From a bacterium (lineage in GTDB: Bacteria > Bacillota_I > Bacilli_A > Izemoplasmatales > Hujiaoplasmataceae), in NCBI GenBank assembly GCA_030684695.1, contig JAUXXX010000035.1:28835-92834 (forward strand): a stretch of DNA of 64,000 nt. The letters run 5' to 3'. Shown here one piece after another: positions 942 to 52,590 of this stretch. The notes below the pieces were generated by a model. That model was given only the letters and a program-made list of their open reading frames with translations. It was not told where the DNA came from and ran no database searches. Made by a program: the position numbers and the translations under genes. Each line of letters opens with the position of its first letter. Positions within the stretch are counted from its first letter, which is position 1.

Positions 942-1085
942 TAACAGACCGCATCTGGAATGTGAACTTGTTTTGGTCTGGTATGGTTTTTTAATCAGTG
1001 GGTAGCTCATGATATCATATGGGTAGAAACCCAGGAGAAGAGAAACCATACCAAGAAATAACTCGACTAGTTCAAATACATCCAA

Positions 1086-1113
1086 CAAAAAGATTCTGAA
1101 AAGAATCTTTTTG
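1086..1113 (+). terminator. Rho-independent terminator
   Basis: AAAAAGATTC-tgaaa-GAATCTTTTT perfect hairpin with T-run. Confidence 0.75.
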
Positions 1114-1182
1114 TATAACGGATAGATACAAAAATGTTGCAATAATCAACCGTTTCTCTTATAATGAAATGGGGGAAGAATA

Positions 1183-1500
1183 ATGAAAAAAGATAAAACT
1201 AAGATAGAAAAAATTCTTAAAAATGAGTATCTAATCGATATGGATAAACATTCTAAAGAGTTATGGCTAAGAGCAAAAATAGTGATGCAATTTGTGACGC
1301 TAAGAGAAATACGAAAGTTATCTCAAAATGATGTGGCAATTAAAATGAATGTACTACGTCAACAAATTACTAGATTTGAAAATATGACTAATTCACCAAC
1401 CATTAGTTTTCTTGTTAGGTACGCAACCGCACTCAATACTACAATTGATGTGATTCTAAACGGAGTAGAACTAAAGGGGGCATCTAATGAAGGATACTAA
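1183..1500 (+). CDS. XRE-family HTH regulator
   Basis: 105 aa; LREIRKLSQNDVAIKMNVLRQQITRFEN...TISFLVRYATALNTTIDVIL HTH_3 pattern; overlaps the next ORF by 14 nt. Confidence 0.8.
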   Translation: MKKDKTKIEKILKNEYLIDMDKHSKELWLRAKIVMQFVTLREIRKLSQNDVAIKMNVLRQQITRFENMTNSPTISFLVRYATALNTTIDVILNGVELKGASNEGY

Positions 1501-2362
1501 ATTCGAAATTGTTAAGTTTGTTAATAGTGATGTGGAACTAGACGTAAGTATAAGTCCTAATGATGAAACTGTTTGGTTGTCCCTCGATGAAATGTCTATG
1601 TTGTTTGAACGAGACAGGTCCGTTATTGGGAAGCATATAAGAAAGATCATAAACAGCAATGAGCTTGATGAAAACACATGTAGGGCAAAATTTGCCCGAC
1701 AACTAGAGGATGGTCGAGTTTATCAAATAGATTATTACAATTTAGATGTAATCATTGCTGTTGGATATAGAGTTAATTCAAAGAAAGGTACAATATTTAG
1801 AAAATGGGCAACAACCATATTGAAAGAGTATCTATTAAAAGGGTATAGTTTAAATGAAAATAGAGTTTCTGTTTCAAATGATAATTATATCGAATTGAAA
1901 AATGAAGTGAAATCTATTAATACTAGACTATTAGCAATAGAAAATAAGATTGATTCGAAAGAAATCCCAATTGAGAAAATATTCTTCAATGGTGAGTTTT
2001 ACGATGCGTACTCTTTAATTCAAGACATATTTAGAAAAGCTAACAATGAAATCATAATTATTGATAATTATATCGATAAAACACTTTTAGATCGATTGGT
2101 TGTTAAGAGAAGAAACGTTAGTGTTATCGTGTATCATGATCATACCAAGTCGCAATTATACGGAACGGATATAATAGCATTTAACAAACAATACGGTGGT
2201 TTTAGTAATGTAAATACCACAAAAGTACATGATAGATATGTGATTATTGATAAGGTAATCCTGTATCATATTGGTGCCTCACTAAAAGATTTAGGGAAGA
2301 AGATATTTTCTATCAGCGAATCAAATCCTCAAACTATAAGTACTTTATTAGAAAATCTTTAA
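1487..2362 (+). CDS. RhuM-family protein with C-terminal PLD-like domain
   Basis: N-terminal RhuM signature (WLSLDEMSMLFERDRSVIGKHI, DGRVYQIDYYNLDVIIAVGYRVNSKKGTIFRKWATTILKEYLLKGY); C-terminal EIIIIDNYIDKTLLDRL...VHDRYVIIDK..YHIGASLKDLGKKIF. Confidence 0.85.
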   Translation: MKDTKFEIVKFVNSDVELDVSISPNDETVWLSLDEMSMLFERDRSVIGKHIRKIINSNELDENTCRAKFARQLEDGRVYQIDYYNLDVIIAVGYRVNSKKGTIFRKWATTILKEYLLKGYSLNENRVSVSNDNYIELKNEVKSINTRLLAIENKIDSKEIPIEKIFFNGEFYDAYSLIQDIFRKANNEIIIIDNYIDKTLLDRLVVKRRNVSVIVYHDHTKSQLYGTDIIAFNKQYGGFSNVNTTKVHDRYVIIDKVILYHIGASLKDLGKKIFSISESNPQTISTLLENL

Positions 2363-2542
2363 AACATGAATATATACGCCTCGCGTTATAGAGGTTTACT
2401 TGTTTCCGTATGAAATGTACTTGAATTGTCGCCCTTGCACATCCTGTGCATACAGTTAAAGAGTAGTTTTACAAGGTGCTAAAATCTACACGATTATGTC
2501 AATTATTGAGGAATACTAATTTAAAGGTTAAAATTTAGAGAA

Positions 2543-2578
2543 AAAACCACTTTCCTTATAATTATGGAAAGTGGTTTT
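2543..2578. terminator. Bidirectional terminator hairpin
   Basis: AAAACCACTTTCC/GGAAAGTGGTTTT 13-bp perfect stem. Confidence 0.7.
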
Positions 2579-2901
2579 AAGTTATTCATAGATAAAACAA
2601 ATACATATTGATTTTTATATTCGTTTTTGTATTTGTAGATCGAATATACAATCAGATTCCACATATTTCATCTAGATTGCCTTTTGATAGCACAAATGCT
2701 TGTATGTATCGTTTTATGCTTTTTTAAACCAACATTCTGTTGATTTCAGGTTATATTTCTTTTCTACTTTATACATAATGTTAACTGACTCTTCAAGTGA
2801 TGATTCGATATGTTTAGATTAAAAACTTTGTGGCTTTTATATCAAGAACAACGATTTATTTCGCTCTTGAGATAGTGAAGCTTAAATTACTTGTAATGCT
2901 G

Positions 2902-3408
2902 TTAGGAATCCATCAAGGTTATCAATGCACTTGAAAATACTATGAAAACAACAGCACCAAAGCGATAGTATCGTGTTATAGATGCTGTTTCAAGGTATGC
3001 ATTGTATACATCAATAGCCATTTGTTCATTGGAAAATTCATAAATTCGCCAAACAGCATCTGTTCCCAAGCCTTTTTGATACGCAGAAGTTAGTAATGTA
3101 GTAACCCCTGTTGTTCTTTCAATATGAGACTGTAATCCGCCAAACATGTTGATATGATAGTTTTCATAACTACCACCAAAACCGTTTGATTCCAAAAAAG
3201 CGAGCAAATCAGAGACAGAACTAAAGCGGACTGCAGGGGTGGAAGTAGTGGTAGACAGGGAATCTGGATTAGTCGTATTTTCAGAAGTGCCAGAAATCGT
3301 TGTGTTAGTGGGTTCTAAATAGTTTGATGAACTGGTTGATGAGTCACAAGCCGATAAAAAAATATATAGCAAGCAAAGCAATAAAGTGAAAAGAACTCTC
3401 TTTTTCAT
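2902..3408 (-). CDS. Putative lipoprotein of unknown function
   Basis: MKKRVLFTLLLCLLYIFLSAC lipobox followed by a Ser/Thr-rich linker. Confidence 0.7.
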   Translation of the reverse strand: MKKRVLFTLLLCLLYIFLSACDSSTSSSNYLEPTNTTISGTSENTTNPDSLSTTTSTPAVRFSSVSDLLAFLESNGFGGSYENYHINMFGGLQSHIERTTGVTTLLTSAYQKGLGTDAVWRIYEFSNEQMAIDVYNAYLETASITRYYRFGAVVFIVFSSALITLMDS

Positions 3409-4309
3409 AAAAAACTCCTTTGGTTTTTAATCTTATTTTATCGAATTCAGCATAAACCGTCAACAAGGGTATTATAAATACTTAGATTTCTACTATAATT
3501 TGAGACTAACTATGGAAGTATACCTGTTTTGTTTTTAATAACCCCTAAAAAACCAAGCAGCAAACATCGCTTGACGACATTTTGGATACATAGCAACTTG
3601 GATATTGCAAGACATGCCACTTCTTAAAAATAACTTCCAAAAGTTTATGTATTATACTTATATTTGCATGATATAAAGATATTTACAGAGAGGGCTCAAA
3701 TAATGGACAGAAGGTTATAATATCCGCTTCATTCATTTTTAAATAGACTTACATTTCCTCCTTATCTATTAACTATATCAAAAAAAGTAGACTGTGTTAA
3801 TCTATTTAACGCGTCCGCTTTTACTATACCAGTTTAATTGTATCAGGCCTTTTTATGCAAAAAATTAGGGATATAGACAAAATATGCTAACTTTTAGTCG
3901 ATTTTTGACTTTTTATACTTAGTTGACACTATTTATGAAATTCTAAATTGATAAGCAATAACTGATATCGACCGAACTGTTTATACTATTTGGGTGAGGG
4001 GGTGATAAAACTCTGCACGATTACCTGACTTCTTAGTGATTTCATAGAATCAATCTCAAGTACAAGTTGGATAAATGAATATTCATAATGAATAATAACT
4101 ACAAAAAGTATAACGTGGATTGGCATGGAGTTTGATGAGTGGTCGCATATGAATCATATGCATAGAAAACCGCTTATCAAAATCCATTTGGATTAGCTTT
4201 TCGATTTTGCCATTTTGCTGATGCTGCGCAGTCATTAATTATCATATAAGTAAAACCGTACATGTAGCACTTCCTAATAAGTTCTTATAGAGAAAAGGAA
4301 TGGTTTGAT

Positions 4310-4523
4310 ATGAATAAAGCACGCATAAACATTATCATCAACATTCTTGGAGTATTCATTGTTTTTGTTATTTTTTTCATTCCATGAACTTTTAAATTGG
4401 ATTGTGACCTCCGACGAAGAATATCAGTATTTTTTTACTACCTTGGTGGGGGTGAAGTGCATTGGATTAATATCATTTGAGATCTTATTCTTTTTTGTGT
4501 TTTCAACAAAAATCCGACTCTAA
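4310..4523 (+). pseudogene. Small membrane protein gene interrupted by a frameshift in a T7 run
   Basis: MNKARINIIINILGVFIVFVIFF in one frame, continuing as SFHELLNWIVTSDEEYQYFFTTLVGVKCIGLISFEILFFFVFSTKIRL* in the +1 frame after TTTTTTT; total length is 3n+1. Confidence 0.5.
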
Positions 4524-4678
4524 GCTTATCTGCAAAGGGAACGTTTCGTCCAGTCCTTGACATAGGGTACACATTATCTCCTCAAGTATTAGGCCTTTTT
4601 TATTAATTTTTTATGTTTATTTTGATATAACATAAATAATGACAACGACATAGTCAAGAACTATTCAAAAGGAGCTCT

Positions 4679-5407
4679 ATGCAAAAAACAAAACCGTTAA
4701 CGATTGAAAATAGAGGGGATATTTTATATGTCGATTACCCTGAGGTATACGACGCATTTGCGTCAGTAGTAAAGAAGCCAACCATGATGGAAGCCCTTAA
4801 AAAACATTTTGATCTACAAGACAAAGTGGTTCTAGACATCGGTTCAGGGGCGGGCGATTCAACGTTTCAGTTATCCACCATTTCAAAAGCAGTGATTGGT
4901 CTTGAAATTGAAGACAACATGAGAAGTATCGCATTAAAAAGCATGGAAGAAATGAATATTCAAAATGTATCCTTTAAAAAAGGGACAGCCTTACAAATGG
5001 AATTACCAGATCAATCAGTGGACGTATCGGTTGCGATTACATTACCCTTATTCATTGAAGATGAGATTAGAATGTATGTAAAAGAAACGATTAGAGTCAC
5101 TAAACCTGGTGGAATGGTGATTAATTTAGGGATTGCGCCATACAGCTATGGTGGTGATTTGGCAGAAATCATCTTAGGTCCATCGAAAATCACTGAAGAA
5201 GATACCGAAGGAGTTGTTGACCGAATCCTAAGAGATGAATTTGGATTTGATTATTTTGATTATGAAGCTCTTCAAACGTTTGATTCGGTTGAACACATGG
5301 TTTCCACCTACGGGTTTATCTTTGGACAACAAGTGATTGATTATATCCGTATAAATAACCGAAACCACGTTAATTGGACATATCGTGTGCACTATCTCAA
5401 GAAATGA
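4679..5407 (+). CDS. Class I SAM-dependent methyltransferase
   Basis: VVLDIGSGAGDSTFQLS motif I; 242 aa; preceded by AGGAGCT SD. Confidence 0.85.
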   Translation: MQKTKPLTIENRGDILYVDYPEVYDAFASVVKKPTMMEALKKHFDLQDKVVLDIGSGAGDSTFQLSTISKAVIGLEIEDNMRSIALKSMEEMNIQNVSFKKGTALQMELPDQSVDVSVAITLPLFIEDEIRMYVKETIRVTKPGGMVINLGIAPYSYGGDLAEIILGPSKITEEDTEGVVDRILRDEFGFDYFDYEALQTFDSVEHMVSTYGFIFGQQVIDYIRINNRNHVNWTYRVHYLKK

Positions 5408-5436
5408 AAAATACATCATATGTCCAATACTCAATA

Positions 5437-5548
5437 AAGGAAAAGGGCAACTGGACTGTATAGGATAAATACAACATTTATTCTCGATAGTTCCCTTTGT
5501 TAAGCCATTATTTAGGGGTGCTAAAATTGTATTATAACCCTTTTCCTT
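5437..5548. repeat. Dispersed intergenic repeat with 11-bp terminal inverted repeats
   Basis: AAGGAAAAGGG (5437-5447) and CCCTTTTCCTT (5538-5548); interior resembles 9012-9113. Confidence 0.55.
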
Positions 5549-5722
5549 AGACAATATTGATGACATAGCACCTTGGGTATAACAAATCAGATGTGGTAAT
5601 GTGCCTTCTTTTTGCGCAGCTTAGGAGCTATTATATATAAAAAGAAAAGGGTTCAAAACAGAACAAAGTTACCAAGATGCAAATGTCCAAAACCACTCAT
5701 TAAAACCACTTAATCCAAACAT

Positions 5723-5752
5723 TAAGAGGTGCAAACTTGCATCTCTTTTTTG
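5723..5752 (+). terminator. Rho-independent terminator
   Basis: AAGAGGTGCAA-ac-TTGCATCTCTTTTTTG. Confidence 0.65.
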
Positions 5753-5862
5753 TTTTTTGAACGACATATTGATTTAATGTTTTGCCTTGATATAATGATA
5801 GTAACAATACTTCTCCTGCTTGGAAACAGGGGAGGTATTTATTTTTTCTGGGGGTGTGTTTC

Positions 5863-8800
5863 GTGAAAAAGAATGTTCTATTCATCGGGTTGTTCCTATT
5901 TGTATTCACAAGTTGTCAAAAGACAACGACCACTTCTATTCCAAGCACGACTACAACAGTTCCTGTGGTAACAACCACAACAGTTCCTGTGGTAACAACC
6001 ACAACAGAACCTGAGGTAACAACATCAGTTCCCGTAGTTACAACTACTACAGCTACACCAGCAATCGATGTTAGCTATTTGAGTTATACAACGGTTTCAG
6101 GAACCATTCGAATTCTAGGATTCATTACCGGTCAATCACGAGAACATCTCATCATTCCTGAAACGATTAATCAAATGCCGGTGACGGAAATCGCTAACCA
6201 AGCGTTTCAAGGTAACCTTATAATCAAAACCGTTGTCTTACCAAGTTCACTAACACATATCGGAAATGAAGCCTTTGCTTTAGCCGAAAATTTAGTTTCG
6301 GTTCGGATTGATGGTATTTCTGCCATACGCTATGTCGGCAATCAAGCGTTTAGTGAATGTAAAAAACTCACATCAGCACAACTTGTTACTTCACCGGAAT
6401 TAATAAAATTTTCTCCACAATCACAAGTAATCAGTTTGGCCGATGAAGAAGAAACAGTTATCTTTGGTGAACTGGTATTTTATAAGTGTAACAGTTTAGT
6501 CATATTCGTGGTTCCTGAAGGCACGAAGCGGATTCCTCAAGGCATGTTTACTGACTGTGAAAGCCTCCAGGTTATCGTGATACCGGACTCTGTTGTGGCG
6601 ATTGAAGATTTCGCATTTGCTGGTTGCCAAGGGTTATTGGAAATTCAGCTATCATCCGCTTTGATGAGCATTGGAGCTCATGCATTTAGTGGATGTACCT
6701 CCTTAGCGACCATTTCATTTCCAAGTAGCCTTGTATCCATTGGCGATATGGCTTTTCATCAATGCTACCGGCTAAAAGTAGTTGTCATTCCAATCAACGT
6801 TATATCCATGGGTATGGATGTTTTTGTGCCCAATTTTGAGATCACTCATCCGTTACGAGTTTACATTGAGGCATCAAGTCTCCCAAGTGGCTGGAGCGAA
6901 TTTTTCGCTCCGAGTTATGTGGGAGTGTTTTACGGTTTAGGAACCATTGAAATCATCGATGATTTTATGCTCCTACCCGATGAGAATGGGTGGAGTGTTC
7001 TTGGGTTTGTAGGAGATAGCATGGACCAACTGAACATTCCCGAGATGATTCAAGGGAAACCAGTAATAAGCATTCATTCGCACGCATTTTCATTTCAAAC
7101 ACAAATCAAGATTTTTCACATTCCGAGGACCGTTCAAACCATTGGTGATTCAGCTTTTTATGATTCGGGCATCGAGGTAATACTTTTTGAGGAACAGTCG
7201 CAATTACGGCATTTAGGGGCTCATGTGTTTGAAGCATCGTCTTTCTTTCAAACCCCTTTATTACCAGAAAGCATCCTTACGATTGGGGGCTATGCATTTT
7301 ACCAATGTGATGGCATGACTGGGGAGTTCAAATTTCCTTCTCAGGTCCAAACCCTCGAGTCTTATACATTAGCATACGTGAGCCAGTTACAGTCCATTGT
7401 TTTACCAAAATCTTTAAAACGCATTGAAACTCATTCGATAATTGGTGTTATCGAATTACAATGGATTATTATTCCTCGTTTAGTTGAAGAGATTCAAATG
7501 CAAGGAATTGCGGATTGTCCCAAAGCCATCATTTTGGTTGAAAACAATGCGATTGGTACCAACTGGAACCCAGATTGGAATCCACATAACCGACCAGTAT
7601 ACTTCAATGCACAATCTTTAGTCATAGAATCCGGATTCTTATTCCAAGTGAACCAGAGTCAAGCTACTCTAATCAAGTATCTTGGCGAATGGGATCATAG
7701 TATAGTCGATATTCCACAAATGGTTAAAGGAAAAGTTGTTTCTGTGATTGGCGCAAGCGCATTTGAGTTTCAAACCAATATTACTAAAATCACGTTGCCA
7801 TCATCTGTACAAACCATTGAAGCTTATGCATTTGCAGGATGTAGTCAATTAGAGACATTTGAGATTGCTCCAAACTCGATTCTTCTGGAAATTCAAGAAG
7901 GAGCATTCAAGAATACAACTTCTTTACAAGCTTTTTATCTACCTGACTTTGTTCAAATCATTGGTGATTATGCCTTTGATGGCGCGTCCGAATTAACCAC
8001 TTTCTCCATCTCTTCATCGAGCGATCTTCAATCTATTGGGCGAGAAGCATTCAGTAAAACACGTAAGCTAGCACAGATTTTTATTCCCAACTCGGTTCAA
8101 ACCATTGGATATTATGCTTTTTCTAGGATGCTTTTTGAAGAGGGGAACGATTTCCACGTTAGTTTAACCATTTACGTTGAAGCGACCAATCAGCCACAAA
8201 CTTGGCACGATGAATGGGTCGAGTATGAGTCAAAGCCGATAGCAATTATATGGGATGCCAACCAAATCCTTTATGAAGGAGACTACATCTATCAAATTGA
8301 TTCTTCCGGATATGTTAGGTTACTTCGATACATTGGAGATTCTTCGATAACAAGCATTGTCATTCCTACTCATATTCAAAACCGACTCGTATTGCACATA
8401 GGCAACCGCACTTTTTCTGGTATGAAACATTTGACTTCGGTTACGATACCTGAATCCATCCAAACCATTGGGGAAGGAGCCTTTCTTCGTTGTCAAAATC
8501 TGTCTGTTTTTATATTACCTAATCATCTTCAATGGATTGGAAAAGACGCTTTCGAAACGGAGAGAAATTTGATCACGTTTGTTCGCTCACAAGGGACAGT
8601 CGAGCAAGCCTCTGATTTCACTCCTGGATGGCTTGGATCTTATGGAGTTGCGACATATCGTTATCATATTTTACAAGATGGAAAGAGATTACCGAATATA
8701 TGGCTTGAGGCTGTGGATGTTTCAGAACAAGGATTAACCATTCACCCAACCCTTCAAGACCCCGATCAAATTGGAACTTTCAAGTTCATGGAGTTACTTT

Positions 8801-8973
8801 ATCAAAATCAAGTCATCTATTCTTCCAATCTATGGGGAGAATGGGAAGTTGACCAACTAGTCCCTTCTACTATGTATTTGGTTCGCGTTCAAATCGAATT
8901 TACCATTGCAAATCAAGTGATGATGCGAGACTTTTATTATGCTGTTACGACAGGCTCAATAGAAACACCATAG
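5863..8973 (+). CDS. BspA-like LRR_5 repeat surface lipoprotein
   Basis: Lipobox LFVFTSC then (T)nVPVVTTTT linker and many LRR_5 repeats (IGxxAFxxCxxLxxIxIPxSVxxIG). ORF track starts at 5854, but GTG 5863 follows a GGGGG SD better. Confidence 0.85.
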   Translation: MKKNVLFIGLFLFVFTSCQKTTTTSIPSTTTTVPVVTTTTVPVVTTTTEPEVTTSVPVVTTTTATPAIDVSYLSYTTVSGTIRILGFITGQSREHLIIPETINQMPVTEIANQAFQGNLIIKTVVLPSSLTHIGNEAFALAENLVSVRIDGISAIRYVGNQAFSECKKLTSAQLVTSPELIKFSPQSQVISLADEEETVIFGELVFYKCNSLVIFVVPEGTKRIPQGMFTDCESLQVIVIPDSVVAIEDFAFAGCQGLLEIQLSSALMSIGAHAFSGCTSLATISFPSSLVSIGDMAFHQCYRLKVVVIPINVISMGMDVFVPNFEITHPLRVYIEASSLPSGWSEFFAPSYVGVFYGLGTIEIIDDFMLLPDENGWSVLGFVGDSMDQLNIPEMIQGKPVISIHSHAFSFQTQIKIFHIPRTVQTIGDSAFYDSGIEVILFEEQSQLRHLGAHVFEASSFFQTPLLPESILTIGGYAFYQCDGMTGEFKFPSQVQTLESYTLAYVSQLQSIVLPKSLKRIETHSIIGVIELQWIIIPRLVEEIQMQGIADCPKAIILVENNAIGTNWNPDWNPHNRPVYFNAQSLVIESGFLFQVNQSQATLIKYLGEWDHSIVDIPQMVKGKVVSVIGASAFEFQTNITKITLPSSVQTIEAYAFAGCSQLETFEIAPNSILLEIQEGAFKNTTSLQAFYLPDFVQIIGDYAFDGASELTTFSISSSSDLQSIGREAFSKTRKLAQIFIPNSVQTIGYYAFSRMLFEEGNDFHVSLTIYVEATNQPQTWHDEWVEYESKPIAIIWDANQILYEGDYIYQIDSSGYVRLLRYIGDSSITSIVIPTHIQNRLVLHIGNRTFSGMKHLTSVTIPESIQTIGEGAFLRCQNLSVFILPNHLQWIGKDAFETERNLITFVRSQGTVEQASDFTPGWLGSYGVATYRYHILQDGKRLPNIWLEAVDVSEQGLTIHPTLQDPDQIGTFKFMELLYQNQVIYSSNLWGEWEVDQLVPSTMYLVRVQIEFTIANQVMMRDFYYAVTTGSIETP
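5956..6006 (+). repeat. 24-bp in-frame tandem repeat encoding TTVPVVTT
   Basis: acaacagttcctgtggtaacaacc repeated, followed by degenerate copies. Confidence 0.8.
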
Positions 8974-9011
8974 ATTTTGTCAGAATCGAATGAGGAGGCT
9001 ATTAAGAAATT

Positions 9012-9113
9012 AGACTGTATAGGGAAAATACAATAGTCAATATAGAAATTCACTTTTGTAAAGCTATTTTATAGGGGTATACAAACTGTACTATAACTCT
9101 TTACCTTGGACAT
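9012..9113. repeat. Second copy of the 5437-5548 intergenic repeat
   Basis: gactgtatagg.aaatacaa...aggggt...aaa.tgta.tataac.cttt.ccttgGacat shared in order. Confidence 0.5.
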
Positions 9114-9128
9114 CTAGCTAGAATAGGT

Positions 9129-9162
9129 CTGATACAATAATCAGGCCTATTTTTTGTGCAAA
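9129..9162 (+). terminator. Rho-independent terminator
   Basis: AGGTCTGAT-acaata-ATCAGGCCT followed by ATTTTTTG. Confidence 0.65.
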
Positions 9163-9246
9163 TATTCGACCTATCCTTTTCGTGATGATTTTTTGAACCG
9201 AGATTGGAGTCTTATTCTATCTGAAACTAAAAATGAAGCAGCAATA

Positions 9247-9285
9247 AAAAAGATGGGCTTCTCCATGTGGAGACCCATCTTTTTG
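9247..9285. terminator. Bidirectional terminator
   Basis: AAAAAAGATGGGCTTCTCCATGTGGAGACCCATCTTTTT. Confidence 0.75.
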
Positions 9286-9296
9286 ATGATCAATGC

Positions 9297-9470
9297 TTAT
9301 TCAAATGCTTCTTTGATGGCATTCGAAATGGAATCAAGTAATGCATTTTGATTTAACGGGATTGACTCTGAAGAAGGCGTCGTGGTGTCTTTATTGAGGG
9401 GGTTATTTGTACAGCCAACCAAGACGAGCAAAGATAACAGAATCAAACCAAACAATAGAATCTTTTTCAT
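9297..9470 (-). CDS. Small putative lipoprotein (57 aa), absent from the ORF track
   Basis: MKKILLFGLILLSLLVLVGCTNNPLNKDTTTPSSESIPLNQNALLDSISNAIKEAFE*; lipobox LVGC; starts 2 nt after the upstream gene stop; followed by a terminator. Confidence 0.75.
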   Translation of the reverse strand: MKKILLFGLILLSLLVLVGCTNNPLNKDTTTPSSESIPLNQNALLDSISNAIKEAFE

Positions 9471-9472
9471 CG

Positions 9473-10045
9473 TTATTCCCCACTTCCTGTATACGCTGAA
9501 ATCAGAATTGATAAATCCGTTTCAATCATAAAACTACTAGGTAATGCCTCAAACACTCCACCCTTGTTATCAACGAATCTCCAGGTTCCTAAAGCAATAT
9601 TTTCGATTACAATAAGTTCTTGAGAAACAATCGACAAGTCCTTATGTACTCCAACTAACGGATCGATCAGAATATGCGAGGCAAAACCCCAAGAACGAGA
9701 CACATCAGGATAGAAAGAATAGTTATTCACTAAGAAACGGACCAAATCCGTTCCATCGGATTTAGAAACAATTATGATATTCGCTGAACCAGAAGAAGGA
9801 ACCCCATTGGCAACGAACGATAATGTTCCCACATAAATCGTTAAAACATCATCTACCTCAACCGAACCATATAGTAACGACTCTGAATCTAAAGCACTTA
9901 AGACTTGAACTTCAAACTTGAATGCTTCCACAATGGTAATTGAATCAAACGGATAGTATAAATCTTCCGCCGCTAGATGGAGAGTACGCAGCTGCCAACC
10001 AAATAGCAACAATGCAACCAAAATAAGAACTTTTTTCATATTCAA
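9473..10045 (-). CDS. Hypothetical secreted protein
   Basis: 190 aa with N-terminal signal-like hydrophobic segment; SD aggagg-like sequence upstream. Confidence 0.65.
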   Translation of the reverse strand: MNMKKVLILVALLLFGWQLRTLHLAAEDLYYPFDSITIVEAFKFEVQVLSALDSESLLYGSVEVDDVLTIYVGTLSFVANGVPSSGSANIIIVSKSDGTDLVRFLVNNYSFYPDVSRSWGFASHILIDPLVGVHKDLSIVSQELIVIENIALGTWRFVDNKGGVFEALPSSFMIETDLSILISAYTGSGE

Positions 10046-10293
10046 AAACCTCCCTTATATCTTTATCATAGAACAATCAACTAGGACTGTCAATCACTCA
10101 TACTCCTTCTTTTTAAAAAGAGTTCGTTATTAAACTAAATTTGAAACAAATAGTCCCAAAATTTCAATCACACATCCAAAAGATATATGAAACTGCGATT
10201 AGAATAAATGAAGAACCATCATTACGCAAGTCAATAATGCGGAGTGTGCATATTGGTTTTTAATGGGCATTACCACAAACCTAATATGATTAT

Positions 10294-10328
10294 TGGATCT
10301 GGGATTCGTTATCCCAGATCCATTTTTA
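10294..10328 (+). terminator. Orphan Rho-independent terminator
   Basis: GGATCTGGGAT-tcgtt-ATCCCAGATCC ATTTTT perfect 11-bp stem; no supported + strand CDS directly upstream. Confidence 0.7.
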
Positions 10329-10388
10329 ACAATCAAAACAATATCTTGAGTAATACCTATGTTATAATCTTTTATAGAGGTGATTAAA

Positions 10389-12179
10389 TTGAAGAAGCAA
10401 TTACCAAAACGTCATGAACTCGATGTGAAATACACATGGGATATGACCAACCTATTCAAGAAAGAAGAATTATATATAGAAGCATTTGATGTAGTGGAAC
10501 ATGATGTGGATCTATTTTGTGCGAAGTATGAGAACAAACTACATTCCAAAGAATTAATCAATGAAGCTCTTACTGCGTTTCAAGATATTCAAGCAAGATT
10601 GACAAAAATTGGAGCATACAGTTCCTTACAAGCGAGTTCTGATTCCATTTCTGAAGAAAACCAAATGCGTCAAGGGAAAGCGATGATTCGTTTCCAAAGT
10701 ATTTCTAAAAAGGTAGCATTCTTAACAAACGAGTTAAAACAAGTAGATAATGAAGTGTTATTAGCAGCGGCGGAACTAAGCGATGATAATCGATACTATT
10801 TGAAAGATTTAATTGAAGACAAAAATCACACATTGATCCCAGAAGTCGAAAAAACATTGGTTGCTTTATCGCCGGTGTTAAACGCATCTTATGTCAATTA
10901 CAATCGTTTTAAACTAGCCGATATGAAATTTAATGATTTTCTTGTGGATGGTATCACATATCCCAACTCATTTACCTTGTTTGAAAATGAATATGAACAC
11001 GATGTAAATACACTCGTTAGAAGAAATGCTTATGAAACGTTTTATCAAAAACTTTCCGAATACCAACATGGGTTTGCAAGTAACTATCAAGCTCATGTTC
11101 AAAAAGAAAAAATCATGTCTGAACTACGAGGATATCCAAGCGTATTCGATTATTTACTCCATGATCAAAAAGTATCCAAAGATTTCATGGACCGTCAGAT
11201 TGATTTGATTATGGAAAAACTTGCGCCGGCAATGAGAAAATATGCACTTCTATTAAAGAAAGTCCATGGACTCGATAAACTGACCTACGCAGACTTAAAA
11301 ATCCCTGTGGATCCGACGTTTGAACCCAAAGTATCGATAGAAGAATCCAAGCGTTTATTGATCGAAGGATTGTCTGTTTTGGGTAGTGAGTATAATCAAA
11401 TTGTATCGCGTGCTTTTGAAGAAAGATGGATCGATTTTCCTCAAAGTCTTGGGAAGTCTACGGGAGGTTTTTGTTCTTCTCCATATGGATCAACTTCTTA
11501 TATTTTGATTAATTGGAATGGTCAGATGGATGAAGTAATGGTATTAGCACACGAGATTGGTCACGCAGGACATTTCCAATATGCCAATGCGAATCAAAGT
11601 ATTTTGAACACAAGACCATCCATGTATTTTATTGAAGCACCATCCACAACCAATGAGTTGTTAATGGCGAATCATTTAATCAAGAATGCGAAATCAAAAA
11701 GAGAAAAAACATGGTTACAATCTGTCATGATTTCCAGGACATATTATCATAACTTTGTGACTCATTTGCTTGAAGCCGCGTTCCAAAGAGAAGTGTATAA
11801 TAAAGTGGATAGTTTGCAACCCCTATCCGCTCATATTCTCAAAAATATCAAACTAGATGTGTTAAAGAAGTTTTGGGGAGATGCAGTGGAAATCCCAGAA
11901 TGGGCAGGTTTAACCTGGATGAGACAACCCCATTATTTTATGGGTTTATATCCGTATACATATTCCGCCGGACTTACTCTAGGCACTAAAGTGTCCAGAC
12001 TAATCGAAAACAAGGAGATTTTGCCTCAAGATTGGATTAATGTATTAAAAGCAGGTGGTACAAAAACACCACTTGAATTAGCAAAAATGGTTGGCGTGGA
12101 TTTGACCACAGACACCACGCTTTGCGAAGTGATTGAAGAAATATCAGCCATCATTGAAGATATTATTGCAAACCAGTAA
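10389..12179 (+). CDS. pepF: Oligoendopeptidase F (M3 family)
   Basis: HEIGHAGHFQ zinc motif, 599 aa ORF; TTG start at 10389 after AGGTG SD preferred over the track GTG at 10380. Confidence 0.93.
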   Translation: MKKQLPKRHELDVKYTWDMTNLFKKEELYIEAFDVVEHDVDLFCAKYENKLHSKELINEALTAFQDIQARLTKIGAYSSLQASSDSISEENQMRQGKAMIRFQSISKKVAFLTNELKQVDNEVLLAAAELSDDNRYYLKDLIEDKNHTLIPEVEKTLVALSPVLNASYVNYNRFKLADMKFNDFLVDGITYPNSFTLFENEYEHDVNTLVRRNAYETFYQKLSEYQHGFASNYQAHVQKEKIMSELRGYPSVFDYLLHDQKVSKDFMDRQIDLIMEKLAPAMRKYALLLKKVHGLDKLTYADLKIPVDPTFEPKVSIEESKRLLIEGLSVLGSEYNQIVSRAFEERWIDFPQSLGKSTGGFCSSPYGSTSYILINWNGQMDEVMVLAHEIGHAGHFQYANANQSILNTRPSMYFIEAPSTTNELLMANHLIKNAKSKREKTWLQSVMISRTYYHNFVTHLLEAAFQREVYNKVDSLQPLSAHILKNIKLDVLKKFWGDAVEIPEWAGLTWMRQPHYFMGLYPYTYSAGLTLGTKVSRLIENKEILPQDWINVLKAGGTKTPLELAKMVGVDLTTDTTLCEVIEEISAIIEDIIANQ

Positions 12180-12210
12180 GCATCCAAACATATATAATGA
12201 AAGACGATTT

Positions 12211-12236
12211 AGACTAGGGAATCCCTAGTCTTTTTC
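12211..12236 (+). terminator. Rho-independent terminator of pepF
   Basis: AGACTAGGG-aat-CCCTAGTCTTTTTC. Confidence 0.8.
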
Positions 12237-12651
12237 TTATCATTAGTTTCAACCCCCCTTTTATGGGGTCGCTACTTTATCACACATAGCGATTCATAAA
12301 GGGCTATTAGGCGAATGTAATTTTAAAGTGTAGTGATTTTGCAGGGATTGATTGGATGTATAAATTAATGTTTATTCAAAAGAACAATAAGGAAGCTTAG
12401 TTGAACAAGTGATTCATAAGTCATCAATTTAGTGATAGTTATTGTTTTAATCGAGGAGAGATTACTTCCGAGTAACAACAATTCAGATTTCTTTGAATGG
12501 TGTTATAGACTCAAAATGAAGTAATTAACATCAAGAAATTATTCTAGTTTTCTCCACGATCGAAGTGATGGTTTATGAATGTACAATAAAATTCATCCAA
12601 CCCTTGGTTTTCAAAAGAGGTATGATAGTATATAGATGGGGTGATCAATGT

Positions 12652-13065
12652 ATGGATATTGTCCAATATGTTTCTCAATATGAACCACTACTTCACAATT
12701 TGATCGTTGCTCAAGGGGAGGATTGGTTTGATTATACCTTGGGAGAAAATCGACAAAAATATGCAAATGCCTTGGAGAAATCAATCGTCTATCTAGTCAT
12801 CCAGGATGGGGAATGTGTTGGATATGTACGCTGTGTGAATGATTTTGGCTATGGCATTTACATCTATGATTTATTGGTTCATTCAAAAGTGCGAGGGAAC
12901 CACCTTGGGAAAGCATTGATGGATAGAGTCAAACAAGATTATCCCAATGACATAGTCTATGTTATGTCTGATGTGGATGGGTATTATCAAAAATTAGGAT
13001 ACTCTTTAGAAGGGTCCATCTTTGTTGTAACTACAGATATAAGAGAACAAAGCGAACAAAAGTAG
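12652..13065 (+). CDS. GNAT family N-acetyltransferase
   Basis: YIYDLLVHSKVRGNHLGKALMDRVK acetyl-CoA binding motif; ATG 12652 with SD GGGGTGAT preferred over the upstream start at 12565. Confidence 0.8.
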   Translation: MDIVQYVSQYEPLLHNLIVAQGEDWFDYTLGENRQKYANALEKSIVYLVIQDGECVGYVRCVNDFGYGIYIYDLLVHSKVRGNHLGKALMDRVKQDYPNDIVYVMSDVDGYYQKLGYSLEGSIFVVTTDIREQSEQK

Positions 13066-40520: not shown

Positions 40521-40596
40521 GGAGGCTTAGCTCAGCCGGGAGAGCATCTGCCTTACAAGCAGAGGGTCGGCGGTTCGATCCCGTCAGCCTCCACCA
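40521..40596 (+). tRNA. tRNA-Val (TAC)
   Basis: GGAGGCT/AGCCTCC acceptor; anticodon loop CTTACAA; CCA encoded. Confidence 0.95.
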
Positions 40597-40597
40597 C

Positions 40598-40673
<76 letters not shown>

Positions 40674-41550
40674 CTTTTATACACAAAAACCGACTTGAGA
40701 TAGTCGGTTTTTTGTTATTTAAGGCTGCCAAGGTTATGACTGAAAGTACAGGTATGGCTTAGAAAAAAGAGAAGGGTCTTTCAATACGTGAGCGTGAAAC
40801 TAGAATTCTCTGTTCTCGGCAAGTGGGACTCATTAGGAACAATATAATATGAATTTATTAGTTCTTTGGAGTTCTTCTGAAAATGCAACTCATGAACTTC
40901 TAGGTGAAAATAGATTGAGTTGTAATTTTTTCTAGTCATATACTTCTAAGTCCTTCATCTAAAAACCACTGACGTTAGAGGCTTTATATAACTTAAGTTA
41001 AATAGGTTTCGCGCTTATATTGATTCTGCGGAAACGTTATATATGTAAACAATATTATTGGAATAAGCCTTCAATTAATGAGTTTTTGTATCACATATCC
41101 ATCATTCATAGGTTCGATTGCCGTAAGGGTAACCAAAGTTATTAGCAAATGCACTTCTCACCCAAGAGAAGGGGTTTTTATCGATGTTCATAAGTGTTTT
41201 TAGAGATTCAAATAACATGTTAATTTAGTAAAGGATTGCTAATAATATAGATTTAGTTAAAATTATGGAAATAGACAAGTTATGTGCATGTAAGTTAAAT
41301 TTGAGCCAAATACAATTAGTCCATGCCATGATTTTAATTTTCATCAAATATAATCAGCTTATATTGGTATAAGATTAGTGCTTTTCATTAAAAAAGATAT
41401 GACTCATATGATAAACTTTACTTGTAGGCGAAGACTTTGTGAGATTATTGTTTTGATACGTAATATTTTTTGAATATATGATTATACAATTTGAAGTGTC
41501 TACACAAGAGTACTTATACCAATACACAATCAATAAGATAGGAGATTATA

Positions 41551-42153: not shown

Positions 42154-43137
42154 ATGACCTATAAACCACCATACGAAATAAACACATCTATCCTTAACAA
42201 AGTTGCTACTATCATGAAAATGATTGGCAAGTTTTCTTCTTTGAACCATTTATGTAGCCAACCTTTGTTGAGAAGAAAGAACCTAATTAAATCTATTCAC
42301 TCCTCATTAGCAATTGAAAATAATCAATTATCAGAATCTCAAGTGAAAGATTTAATCAATGGTAAACTTGTCATCGGGCCACAAAAAGATATACTAGAAG
42401 TTCAAAACGCAATTAAAGTCTATGAGCATATTCAAGATATTAATCCATACGAGATAAAAGATCTACTGAAATACCATAAGATACTTATGACCTCTCTTAT
42501 CTCTGATGCTGGATTATATCGAAGAGGGCAAGTTGGGGTGTTTGACGATGAAAAAGTAATCTTTATGGCACCACCTGCAGATAAAGTACCAGCTTTAATG
42601 AATGAACTCTATGAATATTTGAATCAAAATGATGAAAACATACTAATCAAATCATGTGTGTTTCATTATGAGTTTGAGTTCATCCATCCATTCAGTGATG
42701 GCAATGGAAGAATGGGTAGACTTTTTCAAACGTGCTTACTTGCAAAGGAAGATGAAATCTTTTACTACTTACCAGTAGAATCGATTATTAAGAAGAAACA
42801 ACAAGCATATTACGATGCAATATCAAAATCGAATCAAGAAGGTGCATCCACCGTATTTATTGAGTTTATGTTAGATGCTATTATTGATACTATGAATGAA
42901 ACATTAAAGCAATCAAATATAGAAAAAGGATTCCTATCTATTCAAGCTAAGAAGTTGTTAGCTATGTTAGAGGAGGGCATACCATACACAACAAGAGAAC
43001 TTATGGATAGGGTGGGTATAAAATCAAGAGCTTCTTTTAAAATGAATTATTTAGACCCGCTTCTCGAATTACGAATGATTGAAATGACACTTCCAGAAAG
43101 ACCTAAAAGTAGAAATCAAAGGTATGTAAAGAAGTAA
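42154..43137 (+). CDS. Fic family protein
   Basis: Fic motif HPFSDGNGRMGR; N-terminal SLAIENN (S/T-xxx-E-[GN]) inhibitory motif; C-terminal winged-helix-like region. Confidence 0.93.
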   Translation: MTYKPPYEINTSILNKVATIMKMIGKFSSLNHLCSQPLLRRKNLIKSIHSSLAIENNQLSESQVKDLINGKLVIGPQKDILEVQNAIKVYEHIQDINPYEIKDLLKYHKILMTSLISDAGLYRRGQVGVFDDEKVIFMAPPADKVPALMNELYEYLNQNDENILIKSCVFHYEFEFIHPFSDGNGRMGRLFQTCLLAKEDEIFYYLPVESIIKKKQQAYYDAISKSNQEGASTVFIEFMLDAIIDTMNETLKQSNIEKGFLSIQAKKLLAMLEEGIPYTTRELMDRVGIKSRASFKMNYLDPLLELRMIEMTLPERPKSRNQRYVKK

Positions 43138-43741
43138 AAAAAACGATAAAGATGAAGTATCACCAAAACAATTTGTGAAATATAGGTATTGATATTAGAC
43201 TAGAGCATAAGTCGCAGAAAAAAACGTGAATCCCAACAAGACACCACCCATAGCCGAGTAATCTAGCCATTATTTTCTCTGTTTTGACGTTTAAGCAAAA
43301 AGTATTGGTATAAACTTCGCATCATCTCTTCGGCACCACTTTTATACACAAAAACCGACTATCTCTAGTCGGTTTTTTTGTTACTTAGGACTGTTAATGT
43401 TATGACTGAGAGTACAGAAATGGTTTTTAAAAAGAGAAGGTTCCAGCAGTACGCAAGCTTGAGTTTTGCATTCTTTAATCATGGCAAATGGGGTTATTTG
43501 AGAACAAACATTCTCCACAATTTGAATTCAGGAAAGTCGGTGACGTCGGTCTGGATTGGTATGGAAGTCAATCAGTGGGTACGATTTGGTATCATATGCT
43601 TACAAGAACACTCATCTAGAACCACTTATTTCACTATTACTAATCAATATAAATAACGATATATGAATAATGTATATTTTTGGATGTCATTTATTGTTTT
43701 CGATATGTTATAATGAATTTTAAAAGAAGGAGGGAATTAAT

Positions 43742-44524
43742 ATGATTCAAGAAAACGCTATTCCGCAAAAAGAAATCAATAGTTCCATTGATCAGTACCA
43801 ACCCGATGAGTCTATGTATCTATGTCGAAGATGGAATATACCGGATACAGAAACTTTCAACCTCAAGATGGGTCCCCTCGAAACGTTTGTTGTCTACAAA
43901 GATAACAAGATATTTGGTGAATATTCGGGCCAACAAAACTTAATTTTGCACGACATATTCAAGGAAAGCGCAGACAAAATCAAACCTCGTGTCAAAGCAT
44001 TCAAGTTTTCAGAGGGAATCACGCTTGCTAAGTCAAATACTGTTGATTTGGAGTTTTCACTCATGGACTTTGTTTATAACGTGAAAATTGGGGTCAAAAT
44101 CAACTTTTCGCTTCGCTATCATTTTTCTGATCGCTTGGTATTTTTGGAGTCGATCATGGGACCCTTGGATTCATTCACCTATTCGAACCTTCAACAAATG
44201 TTTTCCTTTGTCTCGGAGGCTTCCATCAAACGGATGCTGATGAAGGAAATCAAAGACAAAAATATTTCCATATTTGAAATTCCTGTTTTTTATAATGACT
44301 TAAACAACATGATCCAAACCCGGATCAACGAAAAAATGGGTGTATTCGGCGTTGCGTGCAAAGTGCTAATTAATCGCATCAATCTCGTGGAAAACAACCA
44401 ATTAACTGCCTTGAAAGACATCATTACCAAAGCAAACGAGATGAAACAACTTAATTATACCTATGGGGACGAAACATTCATTGATCTCATCGAACTCGTC
44501 GTTCGTCCAGAAAAGGAGGAGTAG
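43742..44524 (+). CDS. SPFH/band-7-like protein (cytosolic)
   Basis: MGPLETFVVYKDNKIFGEYSGQQNLILHDI, VGVKINFSLRYHFSDRLVFLES, FVSEASIKRMLMKEIKDKNISIFEI; family call by pattern only. Confidence 0.5.
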   Translation: MIQENAIPQKEINSSIDQYQPDESMYLCRRWNIPDTETFNLKMGPLETFVVYKDNKIFGEYSGQQNLILHDIFKESADKIKPRVKAFKFSEGITLAKSNTVDLEFSLMDFVYNVKIGVKINFSLRYHFSDRLVFLESIMGPLDSFTYSNLQQMFSFVSEASIKRMLMKEIKDKNISIFEIPVFYNDLNNMIQTRINEKMGVFGVACKVLINRINLVENNQLTALKDIITKANEMKQLNYTYGDETFIDLIELVVRPEKEE

Positions 44525-44526
44525 CT

Positions 44527-45420
44527 ATGTTCTTCGAAACTATTCTCATCATTGGCGTTGTTGCTGCGATTGCATTTGGTCTTTATATCTGGTGGAAACA
44601 TAGTAAAAAACCAGTCTTGGTTGTGGTTTCACCTCCGGAGAAGGATTTGGTATTCAAACGAATTCCCAATCAAATCGAGCATTATGAAAAGTTGAACCTT
44701 CTGCCGAATCCTATGAATACGGTCCTAGTATTCCGGAAAAGTTGTTTGATCGAGACCATCAAAACCGAACAGTTCATCATTAAAGACTATGCGACAGCAG
44801 CCAAGATTAATCTCAAAGATAATGACTTCGCTGAGTTAGATTTTTATTCTTTCAATGGAGATGCACTTGGAAACACCACGATTACTCTTCAGATGCCGAT
44901 TGAAATAAAAGATCCTGTGTATGATCTATTTTTAAAGATCACTCCAAAGGGAGTCTTTCATACAGCCATTGTCGATATTGATGTCTTCTTTCATACTATC
45001 GGCTTATTCCAAGACTTCTATTCTATTGCCCAATTAGAAACTGATCTACGCAGCGAAATCAATTCCTATATTACCAACGGAATTGCCGAATTCGCCTATC
45101 AAAACGAAATCAGTATCTTAGTTCTAAATTACTATTTGGATGAAATCGAAACGTTTTTGAAAGAAAAAATAAACCAATATTTGCATCTAAAAGGAATTCA
45201 AATTGATCATTTCGATTTATCGGATATCTCGTTTGAAGAAACCAAAGAAGTGGCGAATTTAAATGCAGTGTTGATTCGCAAACAAAAATATCTCCTTCAA
45301 GGGTATTCTTATCGCGACGAAAAGAAAAAAGAGTTATTTGATCGAATTCAATTCAAAGCCCAAGCGAAAGTCAATGTTGACTCGATTGTCAAAGACGATA
45401 TTCAAAAGAGCATGCACTAA
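44527..45420 (+). CDS. Membrane-anchored SPFH-like protein
   Basis: N-terminal TM; NTVLVFRKSCLIETIKTEQFIIKDYATA...LRSEINSYITNGIAEFAYQNEISILVLNYYLDEIETFLKEKINQYLHLKGIQIDHFDLSDI; 2 nt after previous stop. Confidence 0.5.
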   Translation: MFFETILIIGVVAAIAFGLYIWWKHSKKPVLVVVSPPEKDLVFKRIPNQIEHYEKLNLLPNPMNTVLVFRKSCLIETIKTEQFIIKDYATAAKINLKDNDFAELDFYSFNGDALGNTTITLQMPIEIKDPVYDLFLKITPKGVFHTAIVDIDVFFHTIGLFQDFYSIAQLETDLRSEINSYITNGIAEFAYQNEISILVLNYYLDEIETFLKEKINQYLHLKGIQIDHFDLSDISFEETKEVANLNAVLIRKQKYLLQGYSYRDEKKKELFDRIQFKAQAKVNVDSIVKDDIQKSMH

Positions 45421-45849
45421 TCGCTTGAATTCTTCATCGAATCAACGATAAGATCTACGAAAGAACGAATTTGAATGAGTCTTCTTAGTTATGTTCTTGT
45501 GCTCGAAAAGCTGCTTGGATTCCTATGTTCGATAATGCATACTTGAATTGCTGAAAAGGAATCCAACGATAAGAAATTAGGCATCATCGAAGTCGATTAA
45601 GCAATATCAATTCATTTTAGTTAAAGGTACCCCCTTAATGGAGTAGCTTTCTCTTAACTGATAGATATCATGAAAACTCTGAATAGATCATTAATTCATG
45701 ATAATCATGTTCGTATTAAACATTTCATATCTCATTTGTTATCGACTTTCAAACCAATAAACAAAACCCAAGGAGAATGAAATAGAACCAAACCTACAAC
45801 GGATAAAAACTGATGGGGAAAGAAATCTCGGTACTCTATGAAAAACTAT

Positions 45850-45960
45850 GATACAACGATTAGTGTGACTAATCCAACCAAAGATGGATACACTTTTGTT
45901 GGTTGGAATCCTGAACTTCCGTATTGAATTCCGGCCGAAAACATGACTGTCACTGCTTGG
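45850..45960 (+). pseudogene. InlB B-repeat (Flg_new) remnant
   Basis: DTTISVTNPTKDGYTFVGWNPELPY*IPAENMTVTAW with in-frame TGA. Confidence 0.7.
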
Positions 45961-46595
45961 TCAAATCGGTTTTGGCTTTCATGGAGGTCGACATGATTGA
46001 TTATTCTGAAAATAAAGGATGACGATTAACGTCAAAAATAGTTATGATTATTACAACAATTTAAATATCTATACAGAATATAACTAAGAGACCAAGATGC
46101 AAATGCACAAAAACCACTAAATCAATTTCGCTTAGTTCATTACGCGATTTGAGTCTATTTGATAAACACTAATATAGTAGTCACCTATACTATAAACTAA
46201 TTGGGTCACCATAATAATCCGTGAAAATATGGACATTCATATCAGACAGATCAGGTTTTCACGGGAAATTTCGTGAGTCTGTACGGGTCACCACACTTAA
46301 CCGAGTAATAAGCCACTTATTGCTCTGTTTTAATGTTCAAACAAAACGTATTGTATAAACTTCGCATCATCTATTCGGCACCACTTATAAACGAAAATCG
46401 ATCCGATAGGTCGGTTTTTTGTTTATTTTAACTTCTATCATTCGTAGAAGACCATATATTCTTGAAATTCGAAGTTCACGTACACAAGACGCGAAATGTT
46501 AAGCAACATGTTGAAGTTCGGTCATTCAACTATGCTATAATGAGTAAAAAGTACTATATAATGAATTATTATCTAGTAGATTAGGATGGTTTAAT

Positions 46596-50401: not shown

Positions 50402-52123
50402 ATGATAAAGAGGCAATGTATGAAAACGATAGATTCAGTGAAAAATTGGATATTACAATGTGTTTCATCTGTAAAAGATTGGATTCAAGTGGCGACTCGA
50501 TGGGCCAAGGAACATCGCTCTTTATGGTATTATCTGGTTACCATCCTGATCGGATTATTTACCATAGTGGTCATCCTCTATTACATATTTTTTCCTTCGA
50601 GGGGTTATTTTCACGCTGATTCCACAGATACATTGATGTGGGCGGAATCTTTCATTGACGCTAGATGGATCTATAATACGGATTTTGCGTATGCTGCTTA
50701 TTTCCTCTTCGGGGGATCTTTACTGATGATGCCTTTTATTGGAATCTTTGGAGTTTCGATGTTAGCCCATGTACTTGGAATGGGATTATTTTATCTTATA
50801 TTTTACGCAGCGATTCTATTTTTCTGTCGATCAATGAAGGTTTCTTGGATGTGGTCAGTAATCATTGGATTTGTCATCAGTTTTGGTGTTGCCAGTGGAG
50901 AAAAAATCAGAGAAATATTTTACGGTCATGTTATCTATTATAGTTTAGGCATTCTCTTCGTTTTGATTGGATTAGGGCTGCTGTTTCGCATGGAAGAAAA
51001 ATTACAACGTTGGATAGAAGAGAAGAAAAAATCTAAGTTGATTCTTTATCTCATCTTAGGGCCATTGTTTTTCTTATTAGCATCCATCAATGGAATTCAA
51101 TCGATTACCATTTTTGTGGTTCCAGTACTCGGAGCCTTCGTCATTGAGCGATTACTAGATGGTTCAAAACCACTTTTTTCAAAAGAGAATACCCCCGGCA
51201 TTATTGCATCAGGATTAGTGTTGATAGGATCCATCATCGGGATTTTCTTCTACTCGTTGCTTGCAAAGGAAGTTCCACAAGGGTATGCGGATGCTTATTC
51301 AGTCTTTTCCGCTCCCCATGAGTGGATTCTGAATATCAATCGTTTGTTGGAGCATTGGTTTACATTAATTGGTGTTGATGTTGTTTACGGAGATCCCATT
51401 AAATCGATTGAAGGTCTTATTAACCTCATTAGAATCTTGTTTGGTTTTATAATTGCATTCATTCCGTTCATTGCTTTAATCAACTACAGCAAACTTCCAA
51501 ACTCAAAAGTACGAGTGGTTATCATCACACATTGGATTTTATCCTCATTAATCATTCTAGGCTATATTTTCGGATTATTATCATCTGCTTCTTGGCGACT
51601 TTCGCCAATACTAGCATCTTCAATCATCGCATCTGTAGTTTACTTACATTCCTTGTTTCAACAAGTGAATACGAAACGATTTGCGATATTGTTTATGATG
51701 CCACTTGTTATTTTTGGAATGGTCACTTCATATATCATCATCAAGATGCCTCATGATTACAATCTGGAAAACGGTAATTTTGATGGGTATTATTTAGCTA
51801 GAGAACTCGAAAAACTAGATTTGACTTATGGGTATGCGACGTTTTGGAGAGCAAATCTCATCACGGTTGTCTCTGACTCCAAAGTGAAAGTTCGAAGCAT
51901 TACCGCTGATTACGAAATTTATCATTTCCAATCACAGCTTTCATGGTATCAAGAACAAGAAGGCGTTGACCGATATTTTGTTTTGCTTAATCATAGTGAG
52001 TATCGTAATGTCTACACTGCACCATGGTTTGAACTAGAACATACCAAAGTGGTTTTATATGGACCACAAACCTACTATGTACTTATTTTCTCCCAAAATA
52101 TTTTTTATCGAGGTGAATCATGA
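50402..52123 (+). CDS. Multi-pass membrane protein, possibly GT-C-like
   Basis: 573 aa, many TM; adjacent to GtrA. Confidence 0.65.
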   Translation: MIKRQCMKTIDSVKNWILQCVSSVKDWIQVATRWAKEHRSLWYYLVTILIGLFTIVVILYYIFFPSRGYFHADSTDTLMWAESFIDARWIYNTDFAYAAYFLFGGSLLMMPFIGIFGVSMLAHVLGMGLFYLIFYAAILFFCRSMKVSWMWSVIIGFVISFGVASGEKIREIFYGHVIYYSLGILFVLIGLGLLFRMEEKLQRWIEEKKKSKLILYLILGPLFFLLASINGIQSITIFVVPVLGAFVIERLLDGSKPLFSKENTPGIIASGLVLIGSIIGIFFYSLLAKEVPQGYADAYSVFSAPHEWILNINRLLEHWFTLIGVDVVYGDPIKSIEGLINLIRILFGFIIAFIPFIALINYSKLPNSKVRVVIITHWILSSLIILGYIFGLLSSASWRLSPILASSIIASVVYLHSLFQQVNTKRFAILFMMPLVIFGMVTSYIIIKMPHDYNLENGNFDGYYLARELEKLDLTYGYATFWRANLITVVSDSKVKVRSITADYEIYHFQSQLSWYQEQEGVDRYFVLLNHSEYRNVYTAPWFELEHTKVVLYGPQTYYVLIFSQNIFYRGES

Positions 52124-52590
52124 GATTTGATAAAGTACTCGTTCATGAAATCATCCGCTATTTGATTGTGGGAGGAGTCGCCACAATTATTGATTATCTC
52201 TCATTCGCACTTTTTCGATATGTGATTCTTGATCTCACGCTCGAAAATCTATTGATATCGACATCGATTGGCTTTGCATTTGGACTGACATTCAACTATA
52301 TTCTTTCGATTATTTTCGTATTTAAAAATGTCTCAGATCCCAACAAAGGGAAAAAACTATCCTCGTTTATCCTATTTGCAATGATTGGAATCATTGGTCT
52401 AGGGCTCACAGAGTTTGGGATGTGGATATCCTATATTACTCGGTTCTTCATAGGCGACAATGTCTATCAAATTCCTGAAATGTTGATGAAAGTCATTATG
52501 ACAGGAATTGTCCTCATTTGGAATTACGTCGCTCGAAAACTTTTAATTTTCCAACCCCCCAAAAGCGAACACAAGGAGATTACATCATGA
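52120..52590 (+). CDS. GtrA family protein
   Basis: [44 protein letters not shown]-like. Confidence 0.88.

Follow-up and report, generated by a model that had tools for sequence, protein, structure and literature searches.

The window analyzed here, a stretch of 64,000 nucleotides from a bacterium of the family Hujiaoplasmataceae, holds two adjacent genes on a small islet at the 3′ end of a tRNA gene, and the question raised by this locus is what such a pair does for its host. Both genes are intact open reading frames (ORFs) on the forward strand with a gap of 2 nt between them: gene 1 (43742..44524, +) encodes a protein of 260 aa, and gene 2 (44527..45420, +) encodes a protein of 297 aa. In agreement with the earlier note, the gene 1 product was found to be cytosolic, with no transmembrane (TM) segment (best 19-residue hydropathy, 1.19), and the gene 2 product carries a single N-terminal TM segment (about residues 1 to 23; 44527..44595, +; hydropathy, 2.35). 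This segment is followed by the positively charged motif KHSKK, which, according to the positive-inside rule, would place the SPFH domain of gene 2 in the cytosol, the same compartment as that of gene 1. Each gene is preceded by an AGGAGG ribosome-binding site (43728..43733, + for gene 1; 44514..44519, + for gene 2), and because the second site lies inside the 3′ part of gene 1, translation of the two genes may be coupled. A promoter scan returned fewer sites than expected by chance.

Both products had been described as SPFH-like but as belonging to no recognized named family. The SPFH assignment was confirmed by matches to Pfam Band_7_1, by a lineage profile, and by the alignment of both proteins along the SPFH region, and the family does have a name, Band_7_1 (PF13421), the group of Bacillus subtilis YdjI. 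Gene 2 scored above the curated Pfam cutoff of 24 (E value, 2.4e-6; 27.8 bits) and gene 1 below it (E value, 7.2e-4; 19.7 bits). The lineage profile, built from 44 relatives chosen by similarity to one Band_7_1 protein, gave 83.7 bits for gene 2 (residues 97 to 279; 44815..45363, +) and 52.5 bits for gene 1 (residues 105 to 251; 44054..44494, +); these scores are not wholly independent because resemblance to the window genes had been the initial reason for including many of the loci, whereas the Pfam result is independent. Compared directly, the two proteins showed a weak likeness to each other (19%; E value, 0.10). Alignment with the relatives revealed two short proteins without the Zn ribbon that most relatives carry and without their WGT motif; with two cysteines in gene 1 and one in gene 2, neither has the C-terminal Zn finger expected of a YdjI protein. 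NCBIfam and PHROGs searches of both genes returned nothing convincing, and a sequence search of solved structures with the gene products gave no meaningful match. The single-sequence AlphaFold models of the two proteins were poor (pLDDT, 40 and 38), and a PDB fold search with these models was uninformative. The paired, Zn-ribbon-less, and self-anchored form found in the islet is an uncommon variant within a known family.

A tandem pair of SPFH paralogs is also the layout of HflK/HflC (PMC11260169, PMC12048511), and the pair could thus be an HflK/HflC-like adaptor that forms a cage around a membrane protease (e.g., FtsH) or regulates it. However, Band_7_1 fits better than the general Band_7 model, which matched gene 2 at an E value of 0.0061 and did not match gene 1. 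Moreover, HflK and HflC both have a TM segment and reach into the periplasm; the gene 1 product lacks such a segment, and a cytosolic orientation is predicted for the gene 2 product. An adaptor role of this type is, in our view, quite unlikely.

YdjI-type genes were patchily distributed across the genomes sampled, with a Band_7_1 match in 37 of 90 genomes of the order and in 102 of 392 genomes of the phylum; a further member of about 433 aa is encoded on another contig (C52) of the window genome itself. The usual relative is a soluble SPFH protein of 350 to 400 aa with C-terminal Zn ribbons, and its gene is often followed by a gene for a 4-TM protein and one for a Zn-ribbon/TM protein. No gene for a 4-TM or YdjG/H-type membrane partner was found beside the pair in the islet. 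The earlier note had counted core-gene homologs in constant, nonmobile surroundings as evidence against its reading; YdjI-type relatives do occur in chromosomal operons, but they are patchy, and the paired form does not occur in this way. At two loci (L074:4501-6098 and L105:456-2233), SPFH/Zn-ribbon genes share operons with genes for a vWA-like protein and for small charged proteins (names assigned by eye), which look like a different stress module. Close-relative scans, which require exact short peptides and therefore miss distant relatives, found no close homologs of the pair in GTDB genome contigs or viral contigs.

The claim that the pair resides in a tRNA-end islet was borne out. Downstream of tRNA-Val (40521-40596) and tRNA-Thr(UGU) (40598..40673, +), the latter being the insertion target, two islets lie in tandem, delimited by repeats of the tRNA-Thr 3′ end at 43327 and 46372. 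The first copy of the att-like repeat core (40662..40695, +) covers the tRNA-Thr 3′ end and the start of its terminator; the second copy (43327..43360, +), at the border between islets 1 and 2, is identical to the first over 34 nt, and the third copy (46372..46386, +), at the right border of islet 2, has 1 mismatch in 15. The right ends of the two islets (43138-43321 in islet 1; 46190..46371, + in islet 2, approximate borders) have about 180 nt in common, with an alignment score of 142 versus a shuffled maximum of 57, and the left ends (from about 40696 in islet 1; 43361..43500, + in islet 2, approximate borders) are also alike, with a score of 128 versus a shuffled maximum of 102. No further copies of these end sequences were present elsewhere in the genome. 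The cargo differs: islet 1 carries DUF1801-like and Fic genes, and islet 2 carries the SPFH pair. As previously stated, the pair is the sole intact cargo of islet 2, the remainder of which is noncoding or decayed. This remainder includes a decayed Flg_new (List_Bact_rpt, Listeria-Bacteroides) repeat (45835..45912, +; E value, 4.4e-5; 23.9 bits, below the cutoff of 27), which is probably the remnant of a surface protein. Neither islet contains an integrase ORF, and a scan of six among the reading frames of their noncoding stretches detected no integrase remnant. The window genome encodes two tyrosine recombinases, both of which look like the housekeeping XerC and XerD on the basis of sequence and neighbors. 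The islets, which share their ends, have exchanged cargo, and lack an integrase, raise a second question beyond that of the pair.

In 16 of 20 relatives of the host family, the tRNA pair is directly followed by the gene for a conserved membrane protein of about 465 aa, MATE-like in our reading by eye, which has no match within the window. One relative (G002) carries an insertion of about 12.4 kb between tRNA-Thr and this membrane-protein gene (L148, − strand, about 300-12790), two others (G007 and G008) have other genes after the tRNA pair, and one further contig ends there. On this evidence, tRNA-Thr serves as an insertion site within the host family.

The decayed sequence adjoining the pair and the absence of integrase ORFs from the islets are in line with a scenario in which the two genes are stranded, fast-diverging paralogs without a present function in a decaying islet, and so are the very long branches of the two proteins and the failure of the genome-contig scans to find a close homolog. 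However, both frames have stayed intact over 557 codons while the neighboring sequence decayed, and the strong ribosome-binding sites and the 2-nt spacing also argue against this scenario, which we therefore regard as unlikely.

Codon usage provides a separate view of the origin of the pair. When the 44 ORFs of the window are ranked by how atypical their codon usage is, gene 1 comes first (z, −3.7; GC3, 0.47) and gene 2 third (z, −1.7), whereas the Fic gene of islet 1 is ordinary. The pair was thus probably acquired from another lineage, independently of the islet 1 cargo. A lateral origin of the pair is thus inferred from its atypical codon usage together with the tRNA-Thr islet borders. No candidate donor emerged: searches of phages, plasmids, and viral contigs turned up no relatives, and those of genome contigs turned up no close ones. 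An ORF of 156 aa (52120-52590) ranks between the two genes in codon atypicality, second in the window (z, −2.6).

Phage defense was one of the functions suggested in the earlier note: as a mobile anti-phage system, a membrane-anchored SPFH pair would sense membrane damage or block phage entry. The tRNA-end islet and the atypical codon usage would fit such a system, and so would the sister islet, in which the Fic-domain protein (42154-43137) matches Pfam Fic/Fic-like_C and PADLOC SoFic (1.3e-47). The Fic gene is a candidate defense gene of islet 1 and, by context, gives a weak hint of defense for the pair. Nothing direct was found, however. PADLOC returned no match for gene 1 and, for gene 2, only PDLC03061 (type I specificity subunit; 0.0011), which is not credible, and the absence of relatives from phages, plasmids, and viral contigs does not favor this function either. 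A lone Fic neighbor does not make a defense island, and our literature search yielded no SPFH anti-phage system. We consider phage defense improbable for this pair.

To place the tandem arrangement itself, 392 genomes of the phylum were surveyed with a 30-sequence profile (A1). Among the matches listed, two full SPFH matches lay side by side in just two genomes, that of the window and one other (G213); further pairs may exist because scoring covered about five candidates per genome and the listing covered some of the weak matches. The G213 pair (L174:1437-3701), which belongs to the SPFH type seen in the window, likewise combines a gene for a soluble protein with a neighboring gene for a TM-bearing one, but its soluble member (355 aa) has kept the Zn ribbon, and its TM-bearing member (398 aa) has two TM segments at the C-terminus. 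The 398-aa protein drew no SPFH match from Pfam, its recognition relying solely on the lineage profile (35.5 bits), and both G213 proteins are themselves rows of A1, so that their profile matches arise by construction, whereas their adjacency does not. Two tandem tyrosine-recombinase-like genes adjoin the G213 pair; its mobile origin is nevertheless not established because an apparent exopolysaccharide cluster comes after it. In the IQ-TREE phylogeny, the window pair grouped together and the G213 pair grouped together, with weak support (76 each) and long branches. This clustering of each pair with itself suggests that two independent tandem duplications may have occurred.

In B. subtilis, YdjI is a soluble protein with a Zn finger that needs YdjG/H for its membrane localization; YdjI is required for PspA localization, and membrane fluidity drops when YdjI is lost (PMC8581546). 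An SPFH protein can, as YdjI illustrates, connect damage of the membrane with its repair, yet YdjI depends on membrane partners. Cages of two SPFH paralogs are also known, as in HflK/HflC (12+12) and Flotillin-1/2 (22 pairs) (PMC11260169). Against this background, we propose, with a confidence of about one half, that the pair is a laterally acquired, two-subunit, membrane-anchored YdjI-type (Band_7_1) SPFH scaffold. The N-terminal helix of gene 2 would anchor it in the cytoplasmic membrane, the SPFH domain presumably pointing toward the cytosol, and the anchorless gene 1 would be held at the membrane through assembly with gene 2 in a mixed ring or cage, for which HflK/HflC and Flotillin-1/2 may serve as precedents. 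By analogy with paralogs that form mixed cages elsewhere, a soluble and an anchored SPFH protein made as a unit would, in the simplest reading, give rise to a mixed, membrane-tethered assembly. The TM segment of the second SPFH protein would then take over the anchoring role of YdjG/H, and the assembly may delimit or stabilize a membrane patch under envelope stress. The membrane stress scaffold put forward in the earlier note fits the nearest characterized relative, YdjI; the role in membrane stress is a conjecture. A YdjI-style role in PspA localization is unsupported here because no PspA (PF04012) match was found in the window genome, which is 87% complete. The other function that had been suggested, a toxin-antitoxin-like pair, would suit two small neighboring genes on an islet but is highly improbable, given that both genes are members of one scaffold family and that no match to toxin or antitoxin families was obtained with either.

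A more specific version of the scaffold proposal can be offered tentatively, and we hold it to be doubtful: a minimal, self-contained SPFH membrane scaffold carried on tRNA-Thr islets that lack an integrase, formed when a YdjI-type protein was duplicated, gained its own anchor, and thereby took the place of the separate membrane partners of the Psp system. If true, an islet-borne two-gene version with a built-in anchor would provide a small system for studying SPFH co-assembly and what the subunits protect.

Among known systems, the pspA-ydjGHI operon of B. subtilis is close to the pair in SPFH family, in the solubility shared by YdjI and gene 1, and in the expected role as a membrane scaffold. 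Unlike that system, the pair lacks the Zn ribbon and YdjG/H-type neighbors, no PspA was found in its genome, and two SPFH genes are present, one of them bearing its own TM segment. HflK/HflC resembles the pair in comprising two tandem SPFH paralogs, with a hetero-oligomer expected here as well, but belongs to a different SPFH subfamily; in the window, the TM segment is confined to gene 2, and the predicted location is cytosolic rather than periplasmic. The Flotillin-1/Flotillin-2 cage, likened to the proposed assembly by architecture, also consists of two SPFH paralogs co-assembling on a membrane, although these are eukaryotic and much longer proteins. PaFlo5-6-7 of Pseudomonas aeruginosa is a multigene SPFH operon with a patchy distribution that was probably laterally transferred (PMC13086221); compared by description, it shares with the pair both the multigene SPFH organization and the patchiness, but has three genes and an unrelated host.
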